A stretch of 64,000 nt of DNA, from NCBI GenBank assembly GCA_945957605.1, contig CAMFLR010000001.1, forward strand, positions 620,001 to 684,000. The letters run 5' to 3'. Positions 911-16,440 of this stretch are shown here, in pieces. The translations under genes were made by a program, and so were the position numbers. The number at the start of each line of letters is the position of its first letter. The first letter of the stretch is position 1. This DNA comes from an uncultured Isosphaeraceae bacterium (GTDB lineage: Bacteria; Planctomycetota; Planctomycetia; Isosphaerales; Isosphaeraceae). Under the pieces are notes generated by a model. It was not told where the DNA came from. It saw nothing but the letters and a program-made list of their open reading frames with translations, and did no database searches.

Positions 911-2593
911 TTATCGCGACGTCAAAGCCTTCTTCCCGCTCAACTCGGTGATCGCTCGCGAAAGCACGCGGTCGTCTTTGGGATTTCCGATCTCAAACGT
1001 CGGAAGGGCGTCGTTACCATCACGCGGCTTGGCGACTTCTTGCATCAAGATCTTCGGCTCGACGCCCTGTTCGCTGTAAGCACGGCCGGTCGGCGAGTAG
1101 AACTGGGCCGTCGTCAGCTTCAGTCCGGCGGGAACGGTACGAAGCTCGAAAATGCTTTGCACCGATCCCTTGCCGTAGCTTTTGTGGTCGCCAATGATCG
1201 TCGCACGGTCGAGGTCTTTGAGCGCACCCGCGAGAATCTCGCTGGCGGAAGCGCTGTCGCGATCTATCAGCACCACGAGCGGCATCGTATAAACCAGGTC
1301 GGGCCGGGCGCGGTAGATCTGCGTCTGGCCGGGGGCACGCCCCTTGGTGGAGACGATCACACCGTGGTCGACGAAACGATCGGCGATGTCGACCGCCACA
1401 TTCAGCAGGCCGCCCGGGTTGCCTCGCAAATCGAGGACGAGCGTACGCAGACCCTGGCGCTGAAGCTTGGCGATCGCCTTGTCGAGTTCGTCGGTCGAGG
1501 TCTTCTGGAAGCCGGTGAGCTGGATGTAGCCGACACCGGCGGAAGGGTCGACGATCTTCGCTTGAGCGACACTCGCAACCTCGACGTGTCGACGCGAGAG
1601 CCGAAGCGATTTTGTGCCGCCAGCGGCGTATTGCACGGTGATGTCGACGGTCGAACCTTCAGCACCTTGAAGCATGCCGGCAGCCTCGTCGAGCCCCATC
1701 CCCTTCACCGACTTCGGCCCGACTGCGACGATCTTGTCGCCAATTTTCAGGCCAGCTTCGAATGCAGGTCCGTCCTTGATCACACCGACAAGCCGTAGGC
1801 CAAGCTCGTCTTGCTTCAGCTCGACGCCCAGGCCGACGAAGTTGCCGTCGATCATCGAGAACATGTCGTCGAGCTTGTCGGGCGTGAGGTAGCTCGAATA
1901 GGGATCGAGCACGTCGCACGCAGCGTAGGTGAATTCGAGAATCACCGGCGCGGGAGTGATGCCGAGTCCCTGTCGTGCCAGTTCGCAGGCCGAGAGAATC
2001 TCGGAACGCGCGGCATTCCGGCTGGGAATCTCGATCATTTCCCGGCGCTCGCGGAGCGCCTGACGGAGCCAGGTTATGCGAGTGGCGTCGCTCGTGATGG
2101 CGTTGGTTTTGAGGTAGTTGGGGTCTCGGAGAGCGACTTCCATGTTGTCGTAGCCGCGGCGAATCATCGGCTCGAGCGCGGCCTTGTCGACATAATGCGA
2201 CTCGATGCGATCGACGAGCTCATCGTACAGCTCGAGAGCTTTATCGCGTGAGAGCTTGAGGAGGATCTCACGGAACGAGCGGTCGGAATAACGGCGGACG
2301 AGCTTGTAGTGCGTCTCGCAGAGCCGCAGACGGTGTGAGAATTCGGTGCGGCTCGGCCAGAGTTCGATCGCGTCTTCGTAAAGACGGATGGCCGAGGCCC
2401 AATTTCGCTTCCGTTCGAATTCAAGCCCGCGCTGCAGCGACTGGGCGGGATCGCCCGGAATCGCCTTCGCTTCCGCAGCGGTGGCGGGTGCCGTTCCCTC
2501 GGGCTCTGCCGCTCTGGTCACGGAGAGGGTTAAGCCGGCGAAAATCGCCAGGGCCAAACACCCCTTACGGACAAGTTCCTCGAGGCTCATCAC
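911..2593 (-). CDS. S41 family C-terminal processing peptidase with PDZ domain
   Basis: A 560-residue exported serine protease of the CtpA type. It has a hydrophobic signal segment (about residues 10-28) and a helical, TPR-like N-terminal part (about 50-110) before the S41 cap region. A PDZ domain lies at about 245-330 (GNFVGLGVEL, then GLKIGDKIVAVG). The S41 core carries the Ser/Lys dyad: Ser449 in SASASE and Lys475 in YGKGSVQ. These enzymes cleave periplasmic proteins near their C termini after PDZ recognition. The first codon is GTG at 2593, followed at once by ATG at 2590, and either may be used. The gene is monocistronic and is followed by a GC-rich hairpin. Family assignment is firm; the substrate is unknown. 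Confidence 0.93.
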   Translation of the reverse strand: MMSLEELVRKGCLALAIFAGLTLSVTRAAEPEGTAPATAAEAKAIPGDPAQSLQRGLEFERKRNWASAIRLYEDAIELWPSRTEFSHRLRLCETHYKLVRRYSDRSFREILLKLSRDKALELYDELVDRIESHYVDKAALEPMIRRGYDNMEVALRDPNYLKTNAITSDATRITWLRQALRERREMIEIPSRNAARSEILSACELARQGLGITPAPVILEFTYAACDVLDPYSSYLTPDKLDDMFSMIDGNFVGLGVELKQDELGLRLVGVIKDGPAFEAGLKIGDKIVAVGPKSVKGMGLDEAAGMLQGAEGSTVDITVQYAAGGTKSLRLSRRHVEVASVAQAKIVDPSAGVGYIQLTGFQKTSTDELDKAIAKLQRQGLRTLVLDLRGNPGGLLNVAVDIADRFVDHGVIVSTKGRAPGQTQIYRARPDLVYTMPLVVLIDRDSASASEILAGALKDLDRATIIGDHKSYGKGSVQSIFELRTVPAGLKLTTAQFYSPTGRAYSEQGVEPKILMQEVAKPRDGNDALPTFEIGNPKDDRVLSRAITELSGKKALTSR

Positions 2594-3060: not shown

Positions 3061-4842
3061 TTACTTCTTTTTGGCCGGTTCGGCCGTTGCTTCGTCGATT
3101 TTGTAGGTTTGACCGGGCTTTGCGTCCTTGATCGTCGAAATTTTTCCCGAAGGCCAGACGATTTCGACGCCGTCGATGCGACTCGCCCCGCCCAGGCCGA
3201 ACGTGAGCGGCAATTCCGACGACGAGAGATACCCCTTCGCCGGGAACAATTGCCGCTGCTGGATCAGGTCTCCAGCTTTCACCGCTACCTTCGCGCCGAT
3301 GCCCACCCGGTTCGATTCCTTGCCGTTGAGCACGATGCGAATCCAGTTGCTCTTCGACCCGCCATCGTTGCGGAAGAGACGCGCTGGACCGCCGTTTGCA
3401 GTCATCACAACGTCAAGGTCACCGTCACCGTCAATGTCGGCATAAGCGCTCCCACGGCCAACGATTGGCGTGAACAGGTCGGGGCCAGCGATTTCAGACG
3501 AGACGAGCGTGAACATGCCTCGTCCTTTCTGACCGCTGTTCCAGAAAAGCTGCGCTGCCTGCTCGTACGTCATCGACGCCTGAACCTTGGCGATGTCGTT
3601 CTCGAGGTGGCCGTTCGTCGAAAGCAGGTCGAGCCGGCCGTCGTTGTCGTAGTCAAAGAAGAAAAGGCCGAACTTGAGCGGCGGCTGCGTCGGGGCGCCG
3701 AGGCCGAAGATGTTCGCCTGGTCGGAGAAGAGCAATCGCGTGGGATCTTCGGTCACGTAGAGCGCGGTCATTTCATTGGCGAAGTTGCCAATCGCCAGAC
3801 CGAGCGTGTTGTCGTTCTTGAAGTAGGCCCAGTCGATACCCATGGCACCTCGGGCGTTGCCCAGCGAATCCATCGCCACGCCCGACGTCAGGCCGACCTC
3901 CTCGAACTTGCCATTGCCGAGGTTGTGAAACAGGAAATTCGGCACGGTATCGTTGGCGATCGCAATGTCGACCAAGCCGTCGCCATCAATATCAAAGGGC
4001 GCGATGCCGAGCCCCTTCCCCTTCGGCGATTTCAACTCAGGCGAGCGCACCTGAATGCCGGCCGACTCGCTGATATCGACAAACTTTCCCTTGTCGTTAC
4101 GCAAGAGCGTGCTGAGCGTGCCGTTGAAGGCTGTCGGCGGACCATAAGCCCGCCCCTTGCCCGAAAGCTGGAAGTTCTGCGACTTGTCCTTGTCGACCGA
4201 CCAATCCACATAGCGGCAAATAAAGAGGTCGAGGTCGCCGTCGTTCTCGATATCGACGAACGCCGCGCTCGTTTGCCAGCCGTCGCCGCCTTTGGCATTT
4301 GCCTCGGTGGTGACGTTCTTGAACTTTCCGCCCCCTTCATTGTGGTAAAGGACGCCGCCTTCACCAAGTGTCGTGATAAAGAGGTCGAGGTTGCCGTCGT
4401 TGTCATAATCGCCGACGGCCACGCCCTGTCCGAAGTGGGTCATCGCCAGGCCAGCGGCCGCGGTGACGTCGGTGAACTTGCCCTTGCCATCGTTTTGATA
4501 AAGACGGTTGCCGACGGTTCCCTTCGCCTGTCGGCCAGGCCAGGCCGCCGAGTTGACGAGGAACAGGTCGGCGTCGCCATCGTTGTCGTAGTCGAAAAAT
4601 GCGACGCCCGACCCCATTGTTTCGGGCAGCAGTTTTTCGCCCTCAGCCGCATTGGTGTGAACGAAGTCGATACCTGCCGCCTTCGTGATCTCAACGAACT
4701 TCACGTCGGGCGGTTTGACGTTCGTGGCGGGCTTAATCGCCACGGGTGCCTGTGGCTTGGCGATGACTGTCTCGGGCTTTCGTTCCGTGCAGCCGGTCAG
4801 GAGCACTAGACCAAGCGCGGGGAAGAATTTGCGGAATCTCAT
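3061..4842 (-). CDS. CRTAC1-like FG-GAP/VCBS repeat lipoprotein with ASPIC/UnbV C-terminal domain
   Basis: A 593-residue protein with a lipoprotein signal: the LLTGC lipobox places the acylated Cys at residue 18. At least six calcium-binding-type FG-GAP repeats follow, each with a D-x-D/N-x-D-G core (DYDNDGDAD, DYDNDGNLD, DIENDGDLD, DIDGDGLVD, DYDNDGRLD, DIDGDGDLD). Together they suggest an integrin-like beta-propeller. The ASPIC/UnbV domain spans about residues 505-580 (NRVGIGAKV to VEIVWPSG). The protein should sit outside the cytoplasmic membrane. Its start codon overlaps the stop of the multiheme cytochrome gene by one base (TAATG), so the two are probably translationally coupled. The function of such cytochrome/CRTAC1 pairs is not established; the protein could be a scaffold or binding partner. 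Domain calls are firm, the role is open. Confidence 0.9.
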   Translation of the reverse strand: MRFRKFFPALGLVLLTGCTERKPETVIAKPQAPVAIKPATNVKPPDVKFVEITKAAGIDFVHTNAAEGEKLLPETMGSGVAFFDYDNDGDADLFLVNSAAWPGRQAKGTVGNRLYQNDGKGKFTDVTAAAGLAMTHFGQGVAVGDYDNDGNLDLFITTLGEGGVLYHNEGGGKFKNVTTEANAKGGDGWQTSAAFVDIENDGDLDLFICRYVDWSVDKDKSQNFQLSGKGRAYGPPTAFNGTLSTLLRNDKGKFVDISESAGIQVRSPELKSPKGKGLGIAPFDIDGDGLVDIAIANDTVPNFLFHNLGNGKFEEVGLTSGVAMDSLGNARGAMGIDWAYFKNDNTLGLAIGNFANEMTALYVTEDPTRLLFSDQANIFGLGAPTQPPLKFGLFFFDYDNDGRLDLLSTNGHLENDIAKVQASMTYEQAAQLFWNSGQKGRGMFTLVSSEIAGPDLFTPIVGRGSAYADIDGDGDLDVVMTANGGPARLFRNDGGSKSNWIRIVLNGKESNRVGIGAKVAVKAGDLIQQRQLFPAKGYLSSSELPLTFGLGGASRIDGVEIVWPSGKISTIKDAKPGQTYKIDEATAEPAKKK

Positions 4843-7800
4843 TATTCTTCTTCCTCCCGCGCAGCGACGGGTTCGGAGAGGGTTGAATCCTTCGTCACAT
4901 CAATTCCAGGAGCGTCTTTGCGATGCATCGGGTGAATCACCACCGATCGCGCATTTTGGTCGGCCGCGGGGTTGTCCTTCACGGCAATACCGATCGCCCG
5001 CCCTTCGGCGAGTTCGTCGGGCTTGTACATGGCGTGAAGCGCCTTGTGGGTGATCGCCAACGTGCGGGCGAGGCTCGCCTGCGTTGCGACGTCACCCTCA
5101 CCACCAAAGATCTTGTTGAGCTGATCCGCCGTCACAAGTAGCGGTGTCAGCCTGGAACCAAACGCGGGACGGTCCGCCTTCAGGAAGCTATCGATCTTGC
5201 TCGAAAGCTCGGTCGCGAGCGTCTTGCGATCGCCCGACTTTGCGTTCGGGTCGCCGATCTTGCGAGCGAGGTCTTCAATTCCCTCAGGCGTAACCGCGAC
5301 TGCGACCGGCTTGTCGCCCGTGGGGGCTTCGTCGGCCAATTCGGCATACGCAAGGCCGAGTCCGTAGTGCGCCGTCACATTCTCGCTATCGATCGATAGC
5401 GTGTGCCGGAACACGGCGGCCGTCTTGTTCAGAAGCGCGATACGCTCCGTCGATTTCGGCGCTTCCTGCCGCGATCGCGAGTAGACAACGTTTCCAAGCG
5501 CGTTGTTCACCTCGTAGTCGAAGCTGAGGTCGATACCGCGATCGGGAATCCGGGTCGAGAGTACCGATTCGTACTTCGTGATCGCCTCATCAAGGAAGCC
5601 GTTACGCTCGTCGATCTGTGCCGAGAGCCAGGCGATTACCCAGGGCGCGGCGGGCTGAGCGTGCTTGCTCGCTTTTTCCAGTGCGGCCAATGCATCTGGG
5701 ATGCGGCCTTCTCGAATGTAAACGCGGCCAAGGTTGGTATAACCATCGGCCTTGCCCAGCTCGGCGACTTTCTGGAAAACCGGCTCCGCCTGCTTGAGTT
5801 CACCCTTCTGGCCCCCCTTCTCCGCTCCTTCGAGGAACAGGCCAATGCCGTAATCATTCCAGCGCTGCCAAACTTCCTTGATCGGCGAGTCGGGGTTTTC
5901 GACCTTCTTACCGCCGACGATCGGCAACGTCACGCTGTCTTTCGCCATCACCACAACCGGCAATTCAGGACCTTTCCCCTTGCCGAAGATGTAGTCCATG
6001 TACGTGCGGTCGAACTTGCGATAGTTCACGCGCGCTTCGAGCGTGATTGGCTCGGTCGACTTGCCCGGCGTGTCGAGTGCGAAGTGCACAACTTGCCCCG
6101 CACCCGGCGGCACCTGCTTGTTGTAGAGCGGGACAAAAATGTCCTGCGGATTGCGGCGATCGATTCGTTTTCCGTTGCGGTCGAGCATATACACATTGAT
6201 GAAGTGTGAATAAGGATCGACCGTGCCGTTCTTGTCGATTCCTCCCGATCGGCCGACGATCTTGTCCCCTTGCTTGGCGATCAACTCGACCCAGATTTCA
6301 TTCGAGTCGACCGTCCCCTGACTGAACGGGTGGCCCAGGCCAAGCGTTCGGACCACGACTTCGACGAGATAGGGCTTGCCGGCCGAAAGCGTGGGAACTT
6401 CGGGACGAATCGGACCCAGGAGTTTGCCTTCGACCACACCTTCGTCGCGCAGGGCGAAGATGTCGACGCGGACTTTCTGATCGGCCAGGAACTTGGCATG
6501 CTTCTCGGCGATATCGGGCCGGTTACGCATCGTTGCCAGGCCCGTGTTCGCACTGACAAAGAGGTGGTCGTGAATTTCCTTGCCGCCCTGGCCATCGAAA
6601 TCCTTCGCGCCGAAATCGTTCGACGCGATGAAGTTCATGTGGCAGTTCACGCATTGCCCCTTCGCGGTGGGCGGATAGTAAAAACTCCGCGCACCGTGGC
6701 CTGAAACGCCTGAAAGTAGGAACGTGTCGTAGTGATTCTGGCCGCGGAGGAAATCCTTGTAATGGTTCAGCGCGTAAGGCAGGCTCACCTTGTGGCAGGT
6801 CGAGCAGAACTGCGAATCCTTGATCAGCGGCTTCAAAAAAGTCCGCTTGTGCATCTCAGGCTTGGCCTTAACCAGGCGGTCGCTGACCCACCGAAGCGCG
6901 GGGTTGCCGCTGAAGGCAAAGGGATAATGCTCTGGCTCTTCGATCGTGTAATCTGCGTTACCGCGTGAGCTGTTCACATTCGTGATCGCGTGGCAAGCCG
7001 TGCAGGTGATCCCTGCCTGGCTTGTGGGATTGTTCACGTCATCATAATTCGGGTCGTCGAACTCACCCGAAAAGAACGGCACTGGGTCGTGACATCCCGC
7101 ACACCAGCGTGCGCCCTGTGTGTTGCCGTCACGCTCCATCGAGACTTTGCGAGTCTCGCGCACGCTCGTCAGATACGCCTTGTTGTTGAACGAGCTGAAA
7201 TGGTGGGAGCTGTGGAACCAGCCGTCGTAGGCATCTTTATGGCATTTCAGGCAGTAGTCATCGGCCATCAAAACCGACGCGGGAATGAAGTTGCCGTTCG
7301 AAGTCACAGCCTCGGAGGGGAAGAAGTATTTTGATCCCTCACGCGGTCCCTTCACGCCGAACTTGAGCGGCTGCTGCGCGTGCAGCATGCCCATGATCAC
7401 GACGAAGCCCGCGACAACCACACCACCACGTCGCGCCCATTTCCAGCGAATCATAGGCCCGGCGAGGCGGTGTTTGATGTAGAGCGCCACCGCGCCCAGC
7501 GGCAGCAAAACATGCAGCCAGTAGCTTACGCGGCGAACCGAGGCGTTCAGGTTGACGGCGTCTGAGAGACGCAGCGACATTTCAAGCCCGGTGATGAGGA
7601 TACCGAGCCCAACGCCGAGCAAAATCAGGCCGTAGCGCACCGCGCTCTTGTTCGGCCGTTTGCGTGAAGTGATGAAGTGAGCGAATCCGAATCCAAGAAA
7701 CGGCAGGATGATAAGAAGTCCGAGAGCGAGGTGAAGCATCACCATCGCCAGATAGAACGGAGTTTGCTGCAAGATGCCGGTGTACCAGGTGACGGCCGTC

Positions 7801-7946
7801 ACGCTGGCAAGATAGACGCCGTTTGCGCTCAACAGGGCGAAGCCGATGAGGCAAACCCAGAGCCAGGGCCGCAAGCCTGGGCCCACGGCGGGCGTATAAA
7901 CCCGCCCGCGGCGATCTTTCATCGCCGGAGTGGTTGGAGATGCCAT
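4842..7946 (-). CDS. membrane-anchored pentaheme c-type cytochrome with C-terminal TPR repeats
   Basis: The ATG at 7946 is chosen because AGGAAGAG stands just upstream and longer versions would run into the preceding gene. The product is 1034 residues. About five hydrophobic segments fill residues 15-200, resembling a cytochrome b-like membrane domain. Five CxxCH heme c motifs follow: CLKCH (about 232), CAGCH (281), CTACH (314), CSTCH (379) and CVNCH (431). The segment around 480-700 looks beta-rich, and about 740-960 is TPR-like (TNLGRVYIREGRIPDALAAL). It probably moves electrons between the quinone pool and a periplasmic or surface partner, but donor and acceptor cannot be read from sequence. 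It is coupled to the downstream CRTAC1-like lipoprotein. The combination of membrane domain, heme domain and TPR is unusual among biochemically known cytochromes. Confidence 0.88.
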   Translation of the reverse strand: MASPTTPAMKDRRGRVYTPAVGPGLRPWLWVCLIGFALLSANGVYLASVTAVTWYTGILQQTPFYLAMVMLHLALGLLIILPFLGFGFAHFITSRKRPNKSAVRYGLILLGVGLGILITGLEMSLRLSDAVNLNASVRRVSYWLHVLLPLGAVALYIKHRLAGPMIRWKWARRGGVVVAGFVVIMGMLHAQQPLKFGVKGPREGSKYFFPSEAVTSNGNFIPASVLMADDYCLKCHKDAYDGWFHSSHHFSSFNNKAYLTSVRETRKVSMERDGNTQGARWCAGCHDPVPFFSGEFDDPNYDDVNNPTSQAGITCTACHAITNVNSSRGNADYTIEEPEHYPFAFSGNPALRWVSDRLVKAKPEMHKRTFLKPLIKDSQFCSTCHKVSLPYALNHYKDFLRGQNHYDTFLLSGVSGHGARSFYYPPTAKGQCVNCHMNFIASNDFGAKDFDGQGGKEIHDHLFVSANTGLATMRNRPDIAEKHAKFLADQKVRVDIFALRDEGVVEGKLLGPIRPEVPTLSAGKPYLVEVVVRTLGLGHPFSQGTVDSNEIWVELIAKQGDKIVGRSGGIDKNGTVDPYSHFINVYMLDRNGKRIDRRNPQDIFVPLYNKQVPPGAGQVVHFALDTPGKSTEPITLEARVNYRKFDRTYMDYIFGKGKGPELPVVVMAKDSVTLPIVGGKKVENPDSPIKEVWQRWNDYGIGLFLEGAEKGGQKGELKQAEPVFQKVAELGKADGYTNLGRVYIREGRIPDALAALEKASKHAQPAAPWVIAWLSAQIDERNGFLDEAITKYESVLSTRIPDRGIDLSFDYEVNNALGNVVYSRSRQEAPKSTERIALLNKTAAVFRHTLSIDSENVTAHYGLGLAYAELADEAPTGDKPVAVAVTPEGIEDLARKIGDPNAKSGDRKTLATELSSKIDSFLKADRPAFGSRLTPLLVTADQLNKIFGGEGDVATQASLARTLAITHKALHAMYKPDELAEGRAIGIAVKDNPAADQNARSVVIHPMHRKDAPGIDVTKDSTLSEPVAAREEEE

Positions 7947-8001
7947 GAAACTCTTCCTCTGGGACGAAAAACGGAAAATCGAAATATGAATGCAGGATCG
8001 C

Positions 8002-8616
8002 TCAGTAAGAGCGCGAGGCCGACGCCGGCGCATCGAGCGCGATCGACGTCAGAACTTTGTGAACGACGGGAGCGAGCTGGGGCTCGGCCGATTCCGGAAA
8101 ATTGCAGACGACGGCCAGGGTTTGTGCCGGCATGAAAAACGTCACTGTGACCTGACGGGTCGGCACAATCGGCTTGTTCTCGCGCGAAGTCGGCTGCCCC
8201 ATGCCGGTGGCGGCAAGCGAGCTACCGTCGCCGGCACCTAGCACATCGACTCGCGCAGCCGTACTTCCCGAGATGATCTGCGACGACCCCTTCGCCTGAG
8301 TGATTCCCGGCAGGCCCGTGAGCCTGGTTACTGATTCCTGTGCGTACCAGTCAGAGTCAGGCTTTGGGATGGGAAGCGCGGTGTAGACGATGAGCCGGCT
8401 ATCCGACGGCCCCGCCCACGCTGCGACGATGTCACCTGGCGCCATGACTTTGTCACGCGAAAGCGTAGTCCAATCGCTGCCAGGTTCGATCTTGATGCCC
8501 GCCTTTTCAAGCGGCGTGGTCGGACCGCAACCCGACGTTGCGACCGCCATCCAAACGAGTCCAAGACCTACGAACCGGCGGCCATCCCCCAGCGCCTGGG
8601 GCAAATGCAAACGCAT
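8002..8616 (-). CDS. hypothetical lipoprotein upstream of the multiheme cytochrome
   Basis: A 204-residue protein with a lipoprotein signal peptide: a hydrophobic run, then VATSGC with Cys30 as the likely lipidated residue. The mature part has short beta-strand-like stretches (RLIVYTALPIP, RQVTVTFFMP, TLAVVCNFPE) and ends with a helix (LAPVVHKVLTSI). No family is recognised. It lies 55 bp upstream of the cytochrome start in the same direction, so it is probably in the same operon. A role as an accessory factor of the redox unit is inferred from position only. Confidence 0.75.
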   Translation of the reverse strand: MRLHLPQALGDGRRFVGLGLVWMAVATSGCGPTTPLEKAGIKIEPGSDWTTLSRDKVMAPGDIVAAWAGPSDSRLIVYTALPIPKPDSDWYAQESVTRLTGLPGITQAKGSSQIISGSTAARVDVLGAGDGSSLAATGMGQPTSRENKPIVPTRQVTVTFFMPAQTLAVVCNFPESAEPQLAPVVHKVLTSIALDAPASASRSY

Positions 8617-8711
8617 ATCCAGAAAACTCCCGCTAAAACAAATCGGCGACGCGGAACCTCCGCGCAGTTCGAGCGCGGCGCGGAGCGACAGGTTTACCGT
8701 GGCGGGATTGT

Positions 8712-9116
8712 TTAGCGCGGGGGACGGTCGAGCCGAGATGCGAATTCGCGATACGTCACCGCAGGTTCGGGTGCGAGCAATCGCGCGGCAATTGAGTTTG
8801 CTGGCGGTGTAAGTTGCGCCAGTACCGCAGAAGCGGAAGGGAAAACGGAAATCGCGGCCGTCGGTGCCGGCGTTTCGTCCTGGCAGTGACGCGGTACGGC
8901 GACCGGGACGCTCGGTTCTTGATGCATTTGATCAATCAAGGCGAGCGGTGCGAAATCGGCGTTGAGCGCGTTGAGCATGCGGCCGAGGGTCGGCGGCGGG
9001 TCGGCAACGTGGCAACCGGCGCGGGCGACCTGCGCATCGCCGACCAGACCGGCAAGCACCAGGAGTGCGGCCAGAACCGGCGAGGGGACGCAGATCGTGC
9101 GGCGAATGCCCGTCAC
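8712..9116 (-). CDS. small predicted secreted protein, unknown function
   Basis: A 134-residue frame from a GTG start with a convincing export signal: a basic N terminus (TGIRR), a hydrophobic core (LAALLVLAGLVG) and a signal peptidase-like VARAG site. The mature part is Pro/Ala-rich with two cysteines (GCHV, RHCQD) and no recognised domain. It is the first gene of the leftward group ending with the CRTAC1-like lipoprotein, 95 bp before the next gene. The signal peptide is the main reason to believe the gene. GTG start and weak ribosome binding site keep confidence moderate. Confidence 0.55.
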   Translation of the reverse strand: MTGIRRTICVPSPVLAALLVLAGLVGDAQVARAGCHVADPPPTLGRMLNALNADFAPLALIDQMHQEPSVPVAVPRHCQDETPAPTAAISVFPSASAVLAQLTPPANSIAARLLAPEPAVTYREFASRLDRPPR

Positions 9117-9446: not shown

Positions 9447-11369
9447 TTGTTCGCCGGACCGATCATCGCCCGTGAAGTGCTTACCGCTCCCCGCCCCTTG
9501 CGGTTTTATATCGCTCGCGCGTCTTACGTCGGCTTGCTGTTCATCCTGATGTGGACCGCCTGGCAGTCGCTCATCGGCTGGCGAGTCGTCACGGAAGTCG
9601 GCCTGATGGCGTTCTTCGGCAACATCCTCTTCCGCGTTTTCGTGATCGTCCAATTGACGCTCATGCTCTTCTTCGCGCCGCTGGCCGCAGCAACGGCCGT
9701 CGCGCATGAAAAAGATCGCCGCACGTTTGTCTTGTTGTTGATGACCGACCTGCGCGACGTCGAGATCATCCTCGGCAAGCTCGCGGCCAGCCTTTTGCAG
9801 ATCGTGACTCTGCTTCTCACGTCTGCACCCGTTTTCTTCCTCTGCTTGCTTCTCGGCGGATTCTCGGCGAATCAAGTCTTCGACATTCTCGGTATCACCG
9901 CCGCGGCGGGCATTGCGGGCGGCTCGTTGGGATTGCTCGTCGCCCTGGGCCGCGATCGCACGTTCCAGTCGCTCGCGCTCACGGTGCTCGTGCTCGTGCT
10001 CAGCCTGATCGCCGTTGAAGCAGTCGGCTATGTTTTGCCCTCCGCTGCGATTTTCGGCGTGCCCATCGCGCAGGCGCTGAATCCGTTTCGCGCGGTGATT
10101 GCCGTTACCGATCCCGCGACCGCTACTCTCGACGCAGTGATTCGTCCCAGCTTCGTCTTCATCGGCGCTGCGCTTTCCGTCGCGTTCATCTTGGTGACGA
10201 CTGGCGTCGTGATGCTTCGCAAGTGGAATCCCGGCAAGGCCGAGCCCCGCGAACAGCGCGAGGGTGAAGAGGTTGAAGTCGTTGAGCAGATTATTGAGGT
10301 CGAAGCGATTCCCGAACCCGCGCTGGCATCCTCTGTGGTGACCGGCGGTTGGTCGGGCACAGGCGGTTCGCCTGGTGCCGGTCAAGAGTTCGGGGGCACG
10401 CTGCCTGAAGGTCCCGTTGAGTCGGCTGGTGAAGTCGGCGCGACGACTGGTCTGCACGTCCCGCGCCGTACGCACAGACGAATCACGAGCGGTCCCAAGA
10501 AGTATCGTAAGCCCTGGGAAACGCCGATCATCTGGCGCGAAGTGATGACGCGTGCTTATGGCACGAAGCCGCTCATGATCAAGCTGGCGTACATCATCGC
10601 GTTCGTCGTCGGCATGGCCTGGTATCACTCCTCGCCCGAAGCGCTTAGCGACTCGTGGCGCCCCGGTCGCGTGCTTGTGCCCTTGGCGATTCTGAGCTTG
10701 CTGCTCGTGAATGCGCAGGGCGTTACGGCGCTTACGAGCGAAAGAGATACTGGTGCACTCGACCTGCTACTCGTCACCGAGTTGAGCCCCAAGGAGTTCA
10801 TCTACGGCAAGCTTTACGGCGTTCTCTACAACACGAAAGAGATGGTTGCGCTCCCACTGCTGGCCACGGTCTGGCTCACAATCTATGGGGCAATACCGTT
10901 AGAAGCCGCGGTATTCATGTCGATCGATTTTCTTCTGTTCGTGCACTTCGCAGCGATGCTCGGGTTGCACGCGGCAATTACTTACACGAATAGTCGCACC
11001 GCTGTGGCGAATAGCTTGGGGACGATCTTTTTCTTGATGGTCGGCATCTTGATTTGCGCGATGCTCATCGTGATGTCTGACCGCGAGTTCGGTCGCCAGT
11101 TGCTTAGCTTCTTGATCTTCATTGGTGCGGGTAGCGTCGCGCTTTTTGCTTCGCTTGGCGCACGAAATCCCTCGCGCGCGATCGCGCTGGTTGCACTTTT
11201 GACTCCGTTCTGGAGCTTCTATTGCATCATCAGCTTGATCAACCGAGACGTCACCGCTGCGTTCCTTTGCAGCTCGGGCGTTTACGGGTTCGCACTGCTG
11301 GCGATGCTTGTCCCTGCGGTCAGCGATTTCGATATCGCCTTGGGCCGTACGAGCGCGATTCAAGGATAA
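9447..11369 (+). CDS. two-lobed ABC-2 type transporter permease
   Basis: A 640-residue membrane protein with two similar halves. Residues 1-260 hold an amphipathic start (FAGPIIAREVLTAPR) and about six membrane segments. About residues 262-350 form a charged, then Gly-rich, cytoplasmic linker. Residues 360-640 repeat the pattern (PIIWREVMTRAYGT, then six segments). Both halves carry the ERDTGAL/EKDRRTF-like motif seen in ABC-2 and gliding-type permeases just after a membrane segment. Such proteins form the channel of an ABC exporter together with a separate ATPase. No ATP-binding cassette gene is in the window, so the partner must be encoded elsewhere. TTG start supported by GGAGG. An intrinsic terminator overlaps the stop. 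Substrate unknown. Confidence 0.82.
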   Translation: MFAGPIIAREVLTAPRPLRFYIARASYVGLLFILMWTAWQSLIGWRVVTEVGLMAFFGNILFRVFVIVQLTLMLFFAPLAAATAVAHEKDRRTFVLLLMTDLRDVEIILGKLAASLLQIVTLLLTSAPVFFLCLLLGGFSANQVFDILGITAAAGIAGGSLGLLVALGRDRTFQSLALTVLVLVLSLIAVEAVGYVLPSAAIFGVPIAQALNPFRAVIAVTDPATATLDAVIRPSFVFIGAALSVAFILVTTGVVMLRKWNPGKAEPREQREGEEVEVVEQIIEVEAIPEPALASSVVTGGWSGTGGSPGAGQEFGGTLPEGPVESAGEVGATTGLHVPRRTHRRITSGPKKYRKPWETPIIWREVMTRAYGTKPLMIKLAYIIAFVVGMAWYHSSPEALSDSWRPGRVLVPLAILSLLLVNAQGVTALTSERDTGALDLLLVTELSPKEFIYGKLYGVLYNTKEMVALPLLATVWLTIYGAIPLEAAVFMSIDFLLFVHFAAMLGLHAAITYTNSRTAVANSLGTIFFLMVGILICAMLIVMSDREFGRQLLSFLIFIGAGSVALFASLGARNPSRAIALVALLTPFWSFYCIISLINRDVTAAFLCSSGVYGFALLAMLVPAVSDFDIALGRTSAIQG

Positions 11370-13296: not shown

Positions 13297-13446
13297 CACC
13301 TGTCGAACTTGAGCGGCACCGCCCGGTTGACAACGACCGAGCGGTGTCGCACGCTTTTGGGCACGATCATTCGTGCGCGCGTGAATTGCGCCAGCGCACG
13401 TCTGCCTGCCTCTGCACTGACTCGCCCACCCGCTCGGAATCCCACC

Positions 13447-16440
13447 ATGCCGTTTCATCTCCCGCTACCGCGTCGCCCTATCGTTCGCCGGTTCGGAATG
13501 GTCGCCTGCTTGGCGCTTGCTGCGTTCCGGTTGATCCATGCGCAGGACGATGATCTCGCAAAGGAATTGCCACGAATTCCGGCGAAATCTCCACAAGAGG
13601 CGCTCGCGTCGTTCAAGTTGCACAAGGGATTCTCACTCGGCGCCGCGGCTGTAGAACCGCTCATCACCGACCCTGTGAGTTTGGCGTACGACGCCGACGG
13701 GCGAGCGTACGTTGTCGAGATGCGCGGATATCCTTATCCCGAAAAGCAGCCGAGCGGGAATGTGTCGCTTCTGACGGATAAAGATGGCGACGGCGTTTTC
13801 GATACAAGCACGATATTCGTCAACGACCTCTCGTGGCCGACCGGAGTGGTACCGTACGACGGCGGTGTTTTCATCACCGTTGCGCCCGACATCATTTATG
13901 CGAAGGACACGAACGGCGACGGCAAGGCCGACATCAAACGCGTGGTTTTCACCGGTTTCGGCACGCAAAACGTGCAAGGATTGCTCAACGGTTTGCTCTG
14001 GGGAACCGACGGTTGGATTTACGGCTCGAGCGGCAGCAACGGCGGTGATATCAAAAATCTCACGCGTGCCGAAGCCCCTGTCGTTTCCGTACGAGGCCGC
14101 GACTTCCGCTTCAAGCCCGATTGCTCGGCATTCGAAGCGATCTCCGGCGGCGGCCAGTTCGGTCACAGTGTCGACGACTGGGGCCATCGCTTTGTCTGCA
14201 ACAATAGTAATCATATGCGGCAGATTGTCTTGCCTTCGCGCGAACTCGAGCGCAACCCGTTCTATCTCGCCGGCTCGGTGATTCACGACATCGCGGTCGA
14301 AGGCGGTGCTTCGCCAGTCTTCCGGATCAGTAGCGCAGAGCCCTGGCGCATCGTTCGTACTCGCCAGCGCGCCGCCGATCCGGCGATGGTCAAACGCCTT
14401 CCCCCGACCGAACTGTTCGCGATCGGCTTTTTCACATCCGCGACGGGCGTGACGATTTACCGTGGCAGCGCATATCCCGGCGAATATCAGGGTAACGCCT
14501 TCATCGGCGACGTCGGCGGCAACCTGGTTCATCGCAAGATCGTGAGCAAGGACGGACCGATTTACAAAGCAACTCGCGCCGATGAAAAGGTCGAGTTCCT
14601 CGCATCGCCCGATAACTGGTTCCGGCCGGTAAACTTCGCGAACACGCCGTACGGCACCTTGATGATTCTCGATATGTATCGCGAAACCATCGAGCATCCC
14701 GCTTCGATTCCCGAGCCGATCAAGAAACACCTCGACCTGACGAGCGGCAAGGATCGCGGCCGGCTTTACGAGTTGATCAACGACGGCTTCAAGCGCCGTG
14801 CACAGCCGAAACTTAGCAGTGCGACTACGGCCGAGTTGGTTGCAGCACTCGCCGATCGCGACGGCTGGTGGCGCGATACTGCACAGCGGTTGTTGATTGA
14901 ACGCAAGGATTCGGCCGCGGTGCCGTTGCTCATTGAACTCGCGGGCAAGCGTCCCTCTGCTCTCGCCAGAGCTCACGCACTCTGGACGCTCGACGTCTTT
15001 GGCAAGCTCCCGGCGGAACAACTGATTCAAGCGCTCAAGGACGACGACGCGAACGTGCGCGAGGCCGCGGTGCGACTTGCCGCAGGTCGCCAGGACGTTG
15101 CCGCCGAAGTTTATGGGCTCGCAAAAGACGCCGACGCGATGGTTCGCTTCCAAGCGGCATTCACGCTCGGATCTTTCGCCGATTCTCAGGCGGTCGACGC
15201 GCTCGCCGAAATCGCGGCGCGAAGCGGAGGCAACCACTGGACTCGTGCCGCAGTCTTGAGCTCGGTAAAAGGCCGGGCCGAACAGGTGCTCGCGTCCCTA
15301 CTCAAGCGGCTCGACAAGTCGAGCGACACGAAGGTGGCCGAAACCAGCGCGTGGGTGAGCGAACTCGCATACCTGATCGGTGCCGAGAATCAGCCAGGAA
15401 AAGTCGTAGAAGTGTTGACTGATTTACTTCCGCCGCAAACTGCTGATCCTCGGCTGGCTCGCGCTGCACTCGTGGGGATCGGCAACGGACTCAAACGATC
15501 GGGTAAAACGCTCGCACAGGTTGTCCCCGACCGCGCGATTCTCACGCGATACTTCGACGCGGCCCGAACAGCGGCGCAAGGTCGCGGCAGTGTGGCGAGT
15601 CGGATCGACGCGATTCAAATTCTCGGACTCGCCCCTGCCGATGCCGCCGTCGACGTGCTTGCGGGCTTGCTCGACGCACGCGAGCCTTCGAACGTTCAAC
15701 TTGCTGCATTGCAGACGCTTGGCACGTTTAACGATCCCAAGGTCGGCCCCAAGATTGTGGCCCAATGGAAGAGCCTGAGCCCGACCGTCAGACGCGAGGC
15801 GGTGGAAGTGATGCTGGCTCGGGCTGATCGCGTGCTGCTGCTGCTCGACGCGATCGGCAAGAAGGAAATTCCCGCCAACGACCTCGATCCCGCCCGTCAA
15901 ACCACGCTTCGGAACGACCGCCGCCCCGCCGTTCGTGACAAGGCGAAAGCCGTCCTTGCCGAGCTGGCGAAGAGCGATCGTACGCAGGTTATTTTGGCCC
16001 TCAAGCCCGCTCTTACCCTCGAAGGTAAGCGCGACCATGGCCGCACAGTCTTCAAGGCAACTTGCGCGACCTGTCACAAGGCTGAGGACATGGGTGTTGA
16101 GGTTGGCCCGAATCTCGCGACGGTGACGAATCGCTCGCCCGAAGATCTGCTCGTTCACATTCTCGACCCCAATCGCGAAGTGCCGGCGAACTACGTCAAC
16201 TATTCGGTCGCAACGACTGACGGCCGCGTTGTGACAGGCCTTATTGCGTCGGAAACCGGGAATGCGATCGTTCTCAAACGAGCGGAAGGTGCGACCGACA
16301 CGGTGATCCGGGACCAAATCGAGCAGATCGCGGCAAGCGGACAGTCGCTCATGCCCGAAGGACTCGAAAAGGGGTTGAACGCCCAGGATTTCGCCGACCT
16401 GATCGCGTTTCTCAAGTCGCTTCAACCGAAGCAGCCGTGA
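13447..16440 (+). CDS. PVC-type membrane-bound dehydrogenase: beta-propeller, HEAT repeats and cytochrome c domain
   Basis: Starting at ATG 13447 the product is 997 residues and opens with a signal peptide (RRFGMVACLALAAFRLIHAQ). The upstream in-frame TTG at 13309 would add a segment without such features. About residues 40-480 form the PVC N-terminal propeller (FTGFGTQNVQGLLNGLLWGTDG, DNWFRPVNFANTPYG), related to sugar dehydrogenases. About 500-840 are HEAT-like helical repeats (AHALWTLDVFGKLP, ANVREAAVRLAAG). The C-terminal 130 residues are a cytochrome c domain with CATCH and a downstream Met (MPEGLEKG). The protein likely oxidises a carbohydrate or related substrate outside the cytoplasm and passes electrons to its own heme. 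This three-part architecture is strongly expanded in Planctomycetes and Verrucomicrobia. Substrate unknown. Confidence 0.92.
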   Translation: MPFHLPLPRRPIVRRFGMVACLALAAFRLIHAQDDDLAKELPRIPAKSPQEALASFKLHKGFSLGAAAVEPLITDPVSLAYDADGRAYVVEMRGYPYPEKQPSGNVSLLTDKDGDGVFDTSTIFVNDLSWPTGVVPYDGGVFITVAPDIIYAKDTNGDGKADIKRVVFTGFGTQNVQGLLNGLLWGTDGWIYGSSGSNGGDIKNLTRAEAPVVSVRGRDFRFKPDCSAFEAISGGGQFGHSVDDWGHRFVCNNSNHMRQIVLPSRELERNPFYLAGSVIHDIAVEGGASPVFRISSAEPWRIVRTRQRAADPAMVKRLPPTELFAIGFFTSATGVTIYRGSAYPGEYQGNAFIGDVGGNLVHRKIVSKDGPIYKATRADEKVEFLASPDNWFRPVNFANTPYGTLMILDMYRETIEHPASIPEPIKKHLDLTSGKDRGRLYELINDGFKRRAQPKLSSATTAELVAALADRDGWWRDTAQRLLIERKDSAAVPLLIELAGKRPSALARAHALWTLDVFGKLPAEQLIQALKDDDANVREAAVRLAAGRQDVAAEVYGLAKDADAMVRFQAAFTLGSFADSQAVDALAEIAARSGGNHWTRAAVLSSVKGRAEQVLASLLKRLDKSSDTKVAETSAWVSELAYLIGAENQPGKVVEVLTDLLPPQTADPRLARAALVGIGNGLKRSGKTLAQVVPDRAILTRYFDAARTAAQGRGSVASRIDAIQILGLAPADAAVDVLAGLLDAREPSNVQLAALQTLGTFNDPKVGPKIVAQWKSLSPTVRREAVEVMLARADRVLLLLDAIGKKEIPANDLDPARQTTLRNDRRPAVRDKAKAVLAELAKSDRTQVILALKPALTLEGKRDHGRTVFKATCATCHKAEDMGVEVGPNLATVTNRSPEDLLVHILDPNREVPANYVNYSVATTDGRVVTGLIASETGNAIVLKRAEGATDTVIRDQIEQIAASGQSLMPEGLEKGLNAQDFADLIAFLKSLQPKQP

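Follow-up and report, generated by a model that had tools for sequence, protein, structure and literature searches.

Which of the genes around a multiheme cytochrome in an uncultured Isosphaeraceae bacterium belong together, and what might they do? The locus lies in a stretch of 64,000 nucleotides of contig CAMFLR010000001.1 (the window). An earlier note, made from the sequence alone, described four exported gene products as a complete extracytoplasmic electron-transfer or heme-based sensing module without a described function. Our literature search agrees with the last point, as it gave no paper describing the pair of this cytochrome with a CRTAC1-like protein.

Organization of the locus

The four minus-strand genes span 9116-3061 in the ORF list and encode a small secreted protein (SEC), a lipoprotein (LIPO), the cytochrome and the CRTAC1-like lipoprotein (Table 1). 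All four were recovered as noted, together with the five CxxCH motifs, the five membrane helices and the TPR end of the cytochrome. We set the cytochrome start at 7946; a longer ORF of 1063 aa consists of extra upstream codons overlapping LIPO. The coupling of the cytochrome to the FG-GAP/ASPIC lipoprotein is seen in the sequence as TAATG, in which the last A of the cytochrome stop doubles as the A of the CRTAC1 ATG. The export and lipidation signals that had been claimed are also present, as assigned by eye. SEC has an A-R-A/GC-type cleavage site giving a mature N-terminus GCH, one more Cys and the C-terminus RLDRPPR. LIPO carries a Cys after a hydrophobic stretch (ATSGC), and the CRTAC1-like protein has the lipobox LTGC. 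Pfam matches in the unit are Cytochrome_C554, TPR, FG-GAP_3 and UnbV_ASPIC, and neither SEC nor LIPO matched Pfam or NCBIfam.

Table 1 Coordinates of the unit, its domains and its flanking genes in the window
Feature	Position	Strand	Details
SEC, small secreted protein	8712..9116	-	134 aa; ORF, GTG start
LIPO, lipoprotein	8002..8616	-	204 aa, ~180 mature residues; ORF
Cytochrome	4842..7946	-	1034 aa; predicted membrane di-heme b, penta-heme c, Ig-like domain, TPR solenoid
Cytochrome membrane domain	7377..7871	-	residues 26-190, five helices
Invariant His codons	7731-7733, 7677-7679, 7512-7514, 7470-7472	-	H72, H90, H145, H159
Five CxxCH heme sites	7239-7253, 7089-7103, 6990-7004, 6792-6806, 6639-6653	-	span 6639..7253
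Cytochrome Ig-like domain	5925..6473	-	residues 492-674, with invariant H539
Cytochrome TPR solenoid	4926..5873	-	about residues 692-1007
CRTAC1-like lipoprotein	3061..4842	-	593 aa; FG-GAP repeats, UnbV_ASPIC
S41 C-terminal processing peptidase	911..2593	-	next gene downstream of CRTAC1, 468 bp gap
ABC permease gene	9447-11369		upstream of SEC, divergent

Homologs of the S41 peptidase and the ABC permease border the unit in several other Isosphaeraceae loci, so the neighbourhood exceeds the four genes. The S41 peptidase is probably not part of the four-gene unit itself. Scans for promoters (1 promoter-like site against 1.6 expected) and terminators (5 terminator-like sites against 8.1 expected) were uninformative. 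The closest named cytochrome locus among the best 80 of 578 confirmed stretches belongs to an Isosphaeraceae MAG with 78% identity.

At 13309-16440 the window also encodes a large protein with a C-terminal CxxCH (CATCHK), by appearance of a planctomycete heme-binding kind. Judged in the same way, it would be a second exported cytochrome-like protein near the unit.

The membrane domain is a predicted di-heme cytochrome b

The membrane helices of the cytochrome cover residues 26-56, 63-94, 100-127, 135-161 and 168-190. Exactly four of their His are conserved without exception in the 59 close relatives, two of them in helix 2 (H72 and H90) and two in helix 4 (H145 and H159). All four are retained with the same spacing in 20 of 20 divergent homologs at 25-33% identity, which were taken from the weaker rows of the phylum search, and hence in 79 of 79 homologs overall. 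The spacings are HX17H for H72/H90 and HX13H for H145/H159. Since helices 2 and 4 are parallel, H72 and H145 are expected on the periplasmic side and H90 and H159 on the cytoplasmic side. A di-heme cytochrome b has such a layout, with His pairs on two helices, one pair per membrane side. The positively charged loops 94-100 and 160-168 place the heme domain in the periplasm, as judged from the sequence.

An AF2 model of the membrane domain alone, built from 43 sequences, reached a pLDDT of 85.4. In a second look with VIA, the list was headed by cytochrome b6 (2e74; Z 11.3, 4.0 A, 143 aligned), hydrogenase cytochrome b (6g94; Z 11.3, 3.7 A, 127 aligned) and bc1 cytochrome b. It also holds a formate dehydrogenase subunit (1kqf_C; Z 9.9, 3.9 A, 145 aligned), NADPH oxidase and designed two-heme bundles. 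A Z of about 11 for a membrane helical bundle is below the value of about 13 that the tool requires and is not decisive. Foldseek gave nothing significant for this model, all E-values being above 0.8. The window cytochrome matched neither Pfam cytochrome b (PF00033) nor b561 (PF01292) above the cut-off. In the membrane domains of 43 relatives Pfam returned weak and scattered family names, with a best E of 0.056 for PF01292, in 5 of the 43. No quinone site was identified in the cytochrome. Considered jointly with the types of fold matched, these four conserved His make it likely that the membrane domain holds two b-hemes.

The periplasmic part resembles penta-heme cytochrome c552

The cytochrome has exactly five CxxCH motifs, at residues 232, 282, 315, 381 and 432, whose order and near-spacing are kept in 59 full-length type-A relatives. 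Strictly five motifs are present in 56 of these 59, and the other three have four CxxCH and one site with longer Cys spacing. An AF2 model of the whole cytochrome from 24 sequences reached a pLDDT of 83.8 and a pTM of 0.79. The best match to the whole model in the second look was the penta-heme cytochrome c552 of Thermochromatium tepidum (5ze8; Z 15.5, 3.5 A, 333 aligned). The match covers model residues 222-674 and thereby takes in both the heme domain and the Ig-like domain. The remaining rows were nearly all TPR proteins, matched on about residues 690-980. Foldseek likewise returned mainly TPR proteins, and c552 was not among its first 50 rows. At the sequence level, a heme-domain profile of 14 sequences matched the MccSep chains (E 0.003) and c552 (E 0.0065) in the PDB, the match to c552 being weak and in register with the first three c552 hemes. 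NrfA and NapC chains were not in the fold lists, an absence that excludes nothing.

Over the 79 sequences, 13 His are fully conserved, namely the four in the membrane, the five of the CxxCH motifs and H248, H366, H461 and H539. With five c-hemes and four further universal His, at least one distal ligand is not a universal His. One c-heme may thus be open, Met-ligated or ligated in a lineage-specific way, which leaves room for a catalytic or ligand-binding role. The cytochrome could then be a membrane-bound reductase or oxidase that uses such a heme, with an open or non-His distal side, to reduce a small periplasmic N, S or O substrate via the b-hemes. Having only four universal His for the five distal positions fits this reading, and penta-heme enzymes with one open heme exist, for example NrfA. 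However, the remaining position could be filled by Met, by Lys or by a His confined to one lineage, such as H405 (58 of 59 type-A sequences) or H340 (55 of 59), and no catalytic motif was recognised in the cytochrome. For c552, the closest relative with a solved structure, PMC11976967 gives no clear function. We regard a reductase or oxidase as unlikely.

A CRTAC1-like protein is the usual neighbor

The CRTAC1-like protein matched FG-GAP_3 (123.2 bits) and UnbV_ASPIC (73.3 bits) above the Pfam cut-off and human CRTAC1 (9etn) with an E of 6e-21. Its gene was counted as adjacent when it lay within 3 kb of the cytochrome with E below 1e-10. By this count it lay immediately downstream, on the same strand, at 56 of 58 type-A loci with enough sequence (59 examined), at 67 of 74 such named loci (80 examined) and at 14 of 19 such divergent loci (20 examined). 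The loci not counted, one type-A, six named and one divergent, were too short. The type-A and named sets share organisms, and the shared ancestry of the sequences means that these counts stand for few independent events. The named loci are the best 80 of 578 confirmed stretches, and their titles, unverified where they are those of MAGs, name 52 planctomycetes, 26 Verrucomicrobiota and one Thermoanaerobaculia, with one unlabelled. In the Isosphaeraceae a possible CRTAC1 start codon lies at -5 to +13 of the cytochrome stop in 27 of 29 loci. The strict lipobox pattern is present in 20 of 29 CRTAC1 proteins of the family, with L070 and L071 identified by an atypical stretch. In the bacterium's own genome (8.8 Mb), CRTAC1-like sequences with E below 1e-70 occur at seven places and such a cytochrome at one, so the adjacency of the two is not due to chance.

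The divergent loci without CRTAC1 (L157-L160 and L162) all belong to one family, f61, which keeps the b-c fusion and a TPR-length tail; CRTAC1 is downstream in none of the five informative loci of this cytochrome type (L157-L162). Three architectures of the cytochrome were found, namely the TPR type of the window, a divergent type of TPR length in which CRTAC1 may be present or absent, and a shorter type (L171-L176) of ~700 aa without TPR, with CX4CH as the first heme site and CRTAC1 adjacent. All four membrane His are present in the short cytochromes too. A search at E 1e-20 found the cytochrome in 39 of 45 Isosphaeraceae genomes and, divergent types included, in 83 of 294 genomes of the phylum. 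Clustering of ORFs in 80 loci gave as frequent neighbours only the cytochrome, CRTAC1 and a small upstream protein. The conserved unit is the pair of cytochrome and CRTAC1, which is widespread in Planctomycetota and also in Verrucomicrobiota.

The sensing role raised in the earlier note would make the unit a heme-based redox or ligand sensor or regulator, in which heme electrons alter binding by the TPR domain or CRTAC1 and do not serve metabolism. In its favor are the TPR solenoid, the beta-propeller partner and a possibly open heme. Against it, none of the four proteins has an output domain (kinase, cyclase, sigma or other) in Pfam. A transmembrane di-heme b domain with five c-hemes would be costly for sensing, and the cytochrome is a near-universal single-copy protein of the family. 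We consider a sensor improbable.

SEC and LIPO are mostly limited to Isosphaeraceae

Single-sequence searches underrated the two small genes (LIPO in 11 of 40 genomes, SEC in 5 of 40), and profiles run on the loci raised both. With profiles, 27 of 30 Isosphaeraceae loci showed SEC upstream of the cytochrome and 17 of 30 showed LIPO there; among 29 loci from other groups, SEC had this position in 5 and LIPO in none. The four-gene block thus holds for many Isosphaeraceae but not elsewhere. Outside the family the small upstream genes do not stay with the cytochrome, whereas its pairing with CRTAC1 is kept. Both genes are under purifying selection (dN/dS 0.22-0.79 in 14 pairs; below 1 in all nine SEC pairs). 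This selection and the constant order and near-spacing of the heme sites show that the unit is not a chance assembly.

LIPO relatives lie downstream of CRTAC1 in three non-Isosphaeraceae loci (L090:6386-7093, L098:6607-7317 and L107:5123-5776), which suggests that LIPO is a mobile third member. LIPO looks weakly DcrB-like, as sub-threshold similarity to DcrB was seen in 5 of 10 proteins scanned; the window LIPO itself gave no match to Pfam DcrB.

SEC proteins diverge strongly. They keep the signal peptide, the mature N-terminal Cys, a second Cys motif and the C-terminal [LI][DE]RPPR, the codons of which vary synonymously; across the family the C-termini are [LI][DE]RPPR or FHPPR (window 8712-9116; L156:960-1520; L207-L226). 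A gene for a SEC-like protein precedes the cytochrome in 13 further planctomycete loci (cluster 2). SEC-type proteins occur in 36 of 45 family genomes, at one to six places each. Of 20 regions with extra copies retrieved, 16 were counted (L210, L214, L217 and L219 were left out), and in 12 of the 16 the copy lies 108-452 bases upstream of a prepilin-type motif, in genes we take to be DUF1559-like. With most copies elsewhere and near prepilin genes, we dropped SEC as a dedicated partner of the cytochrome. LIPO and SEC are mostly lineage-limited accessories, chiefly of Isosphaeraceae.

The adjoining small secreted Cys proteins with a fixed C-terminal motif would suit an assembly or secretion factor, in which the hemes power a disulfide-based or metal-dependent maturation of surface proteins while TPR and CRTAC1 act as chaperones. 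This is the least probable reading, however, as SEC-type proteins sit mostly away from the cytochrome, beside prepilins, and also occur in G334 and G338, two genomes that yielded no cytochrome.

Comparison with known systems

The quinol oxidases CbcL, MtrH and MtoC, with CbcL from Geobacter, are proposed to link the quinone pool with the periplasm (PMC6295460). They share with the window cytochrome a di-heme b membrane part, predicted in our case, fused to a multiheme c part. CbcL has nine N-terminal c-hemes followed by six HydC/FdnI-like helices (PMC6295460), whereas the window cytochrome is reversed, with five helices first and then five c-hemes of another fold; the Ig-like and TPR domains and the CRTAC1 partner belong to the window cytochrome. 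Geobacter CbcL is the nearest working analog, and the window cytochrome is not a CbcL since domain order, helix number and c-domain all differ. The NapC/NirT/CymA quinol dehydrogenases differ in having a single N-terminal membrane helix and not five.

For the c-domain, c552 has been grouped with ExtKL, Gsu2801 and cable-bacteria proteins as the penta-heme PHC family, and structural links of this family to an archaeal cytochrome nanowire are described in the same work (PMC11976967). The window domain has the five c-hemes of c552 in the same order and the c552 fold with the Ig-like domain after them. While c552 is a soluble chain of 435 residues without a membrane domain, the window domain is fused to the predicted di-heme b anchor and a TPR solenoid. 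MccSep (9wt8/9wt9), a multiheme cytochrome c selenoprotein, is the best PDB sequence match, on the first heme region only, and has 450 residues against 1034 aa. Human CRTAC1 shares FG-GAP repeats and UnbV_ASPIC with the window protein, which differs in being a lipoprotein of a bacterium, its gene coupled in operon-like fashion to that of a cytochrome. In the same superphylum, verrucomicrobial clusters encode multiheme c proteins, octaheme periplasmic cytochromes proposed to transfer electrons; their neighbor is a porin gene (PMC5615132), whereas the frequent neighbors of the window type are CRTAC1 and a small secreted protein. Judged by such analogy, a predicted five-helix b domain joined to a PHC-type c domain, Ig-like and TPR domains and paired with CRTAC1 is a design different from that of CbcL.

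Proposed function of the cytochrome and CRTAC1 pair

We think it probable that the cytochrome spans the membrane as a seven-heme electron conduit that links the periplasm with the quinone pool. If loaded with heme as predicted, it would hold one b-heme between H72 and H145 on the periplasmic side and the other between H90 and H159 on the cytoplasmic side. Electrons would move between the quinone pool and the b-hemes and could pass in either direction between the b-hemes and the five c-hemes of the c552/PHC-type domain. Docking or positioning of a partner, in the periplasm or the outer membrane, may fall to the TPR solenoid and to the CRTAC1 propeller, which is co-translated, tethered to the membrane and presumably in contact with the cytochrome. 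An electron-transfer module, as the earlier note proposed, is thus well supported, the helices being a predicted di-heme cytochrome b, and only its extent as a complete set of four genes was drawn too wide.

The genome of the bacterium also encodes three oxidases, two cytochromes b that pass the Pfam cut-off and, next to an oxidase, a protein of the NrfD type. With these present, we dropped the cytochrome as the only complex III substitute of the organism. It would be an extra quinol branch.

Tentatively, and with more doubt than for the conduit itself, the pair may form an undescribed respiratory branch in Planctomycetota and Verrucomicrobiota, in which a seven-heme b-c protein with an obligate CRTAC1-type pairing connects the quinone pool to a periplasmic or outer-membrane partner. 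Such a branch would give bacterial relatives of human CRTAC1 a first function, and the pairing is a concrete handle on the role of these proteins. If the conduit reading holds, nearly all Isosphaeraceae, and commonly also other Planctomycetota and Verrucomicrobiota, would carry a gene for a transmembrane redox conduit of new domain design, in groups whose electron-transfer chains are poorly mapped.
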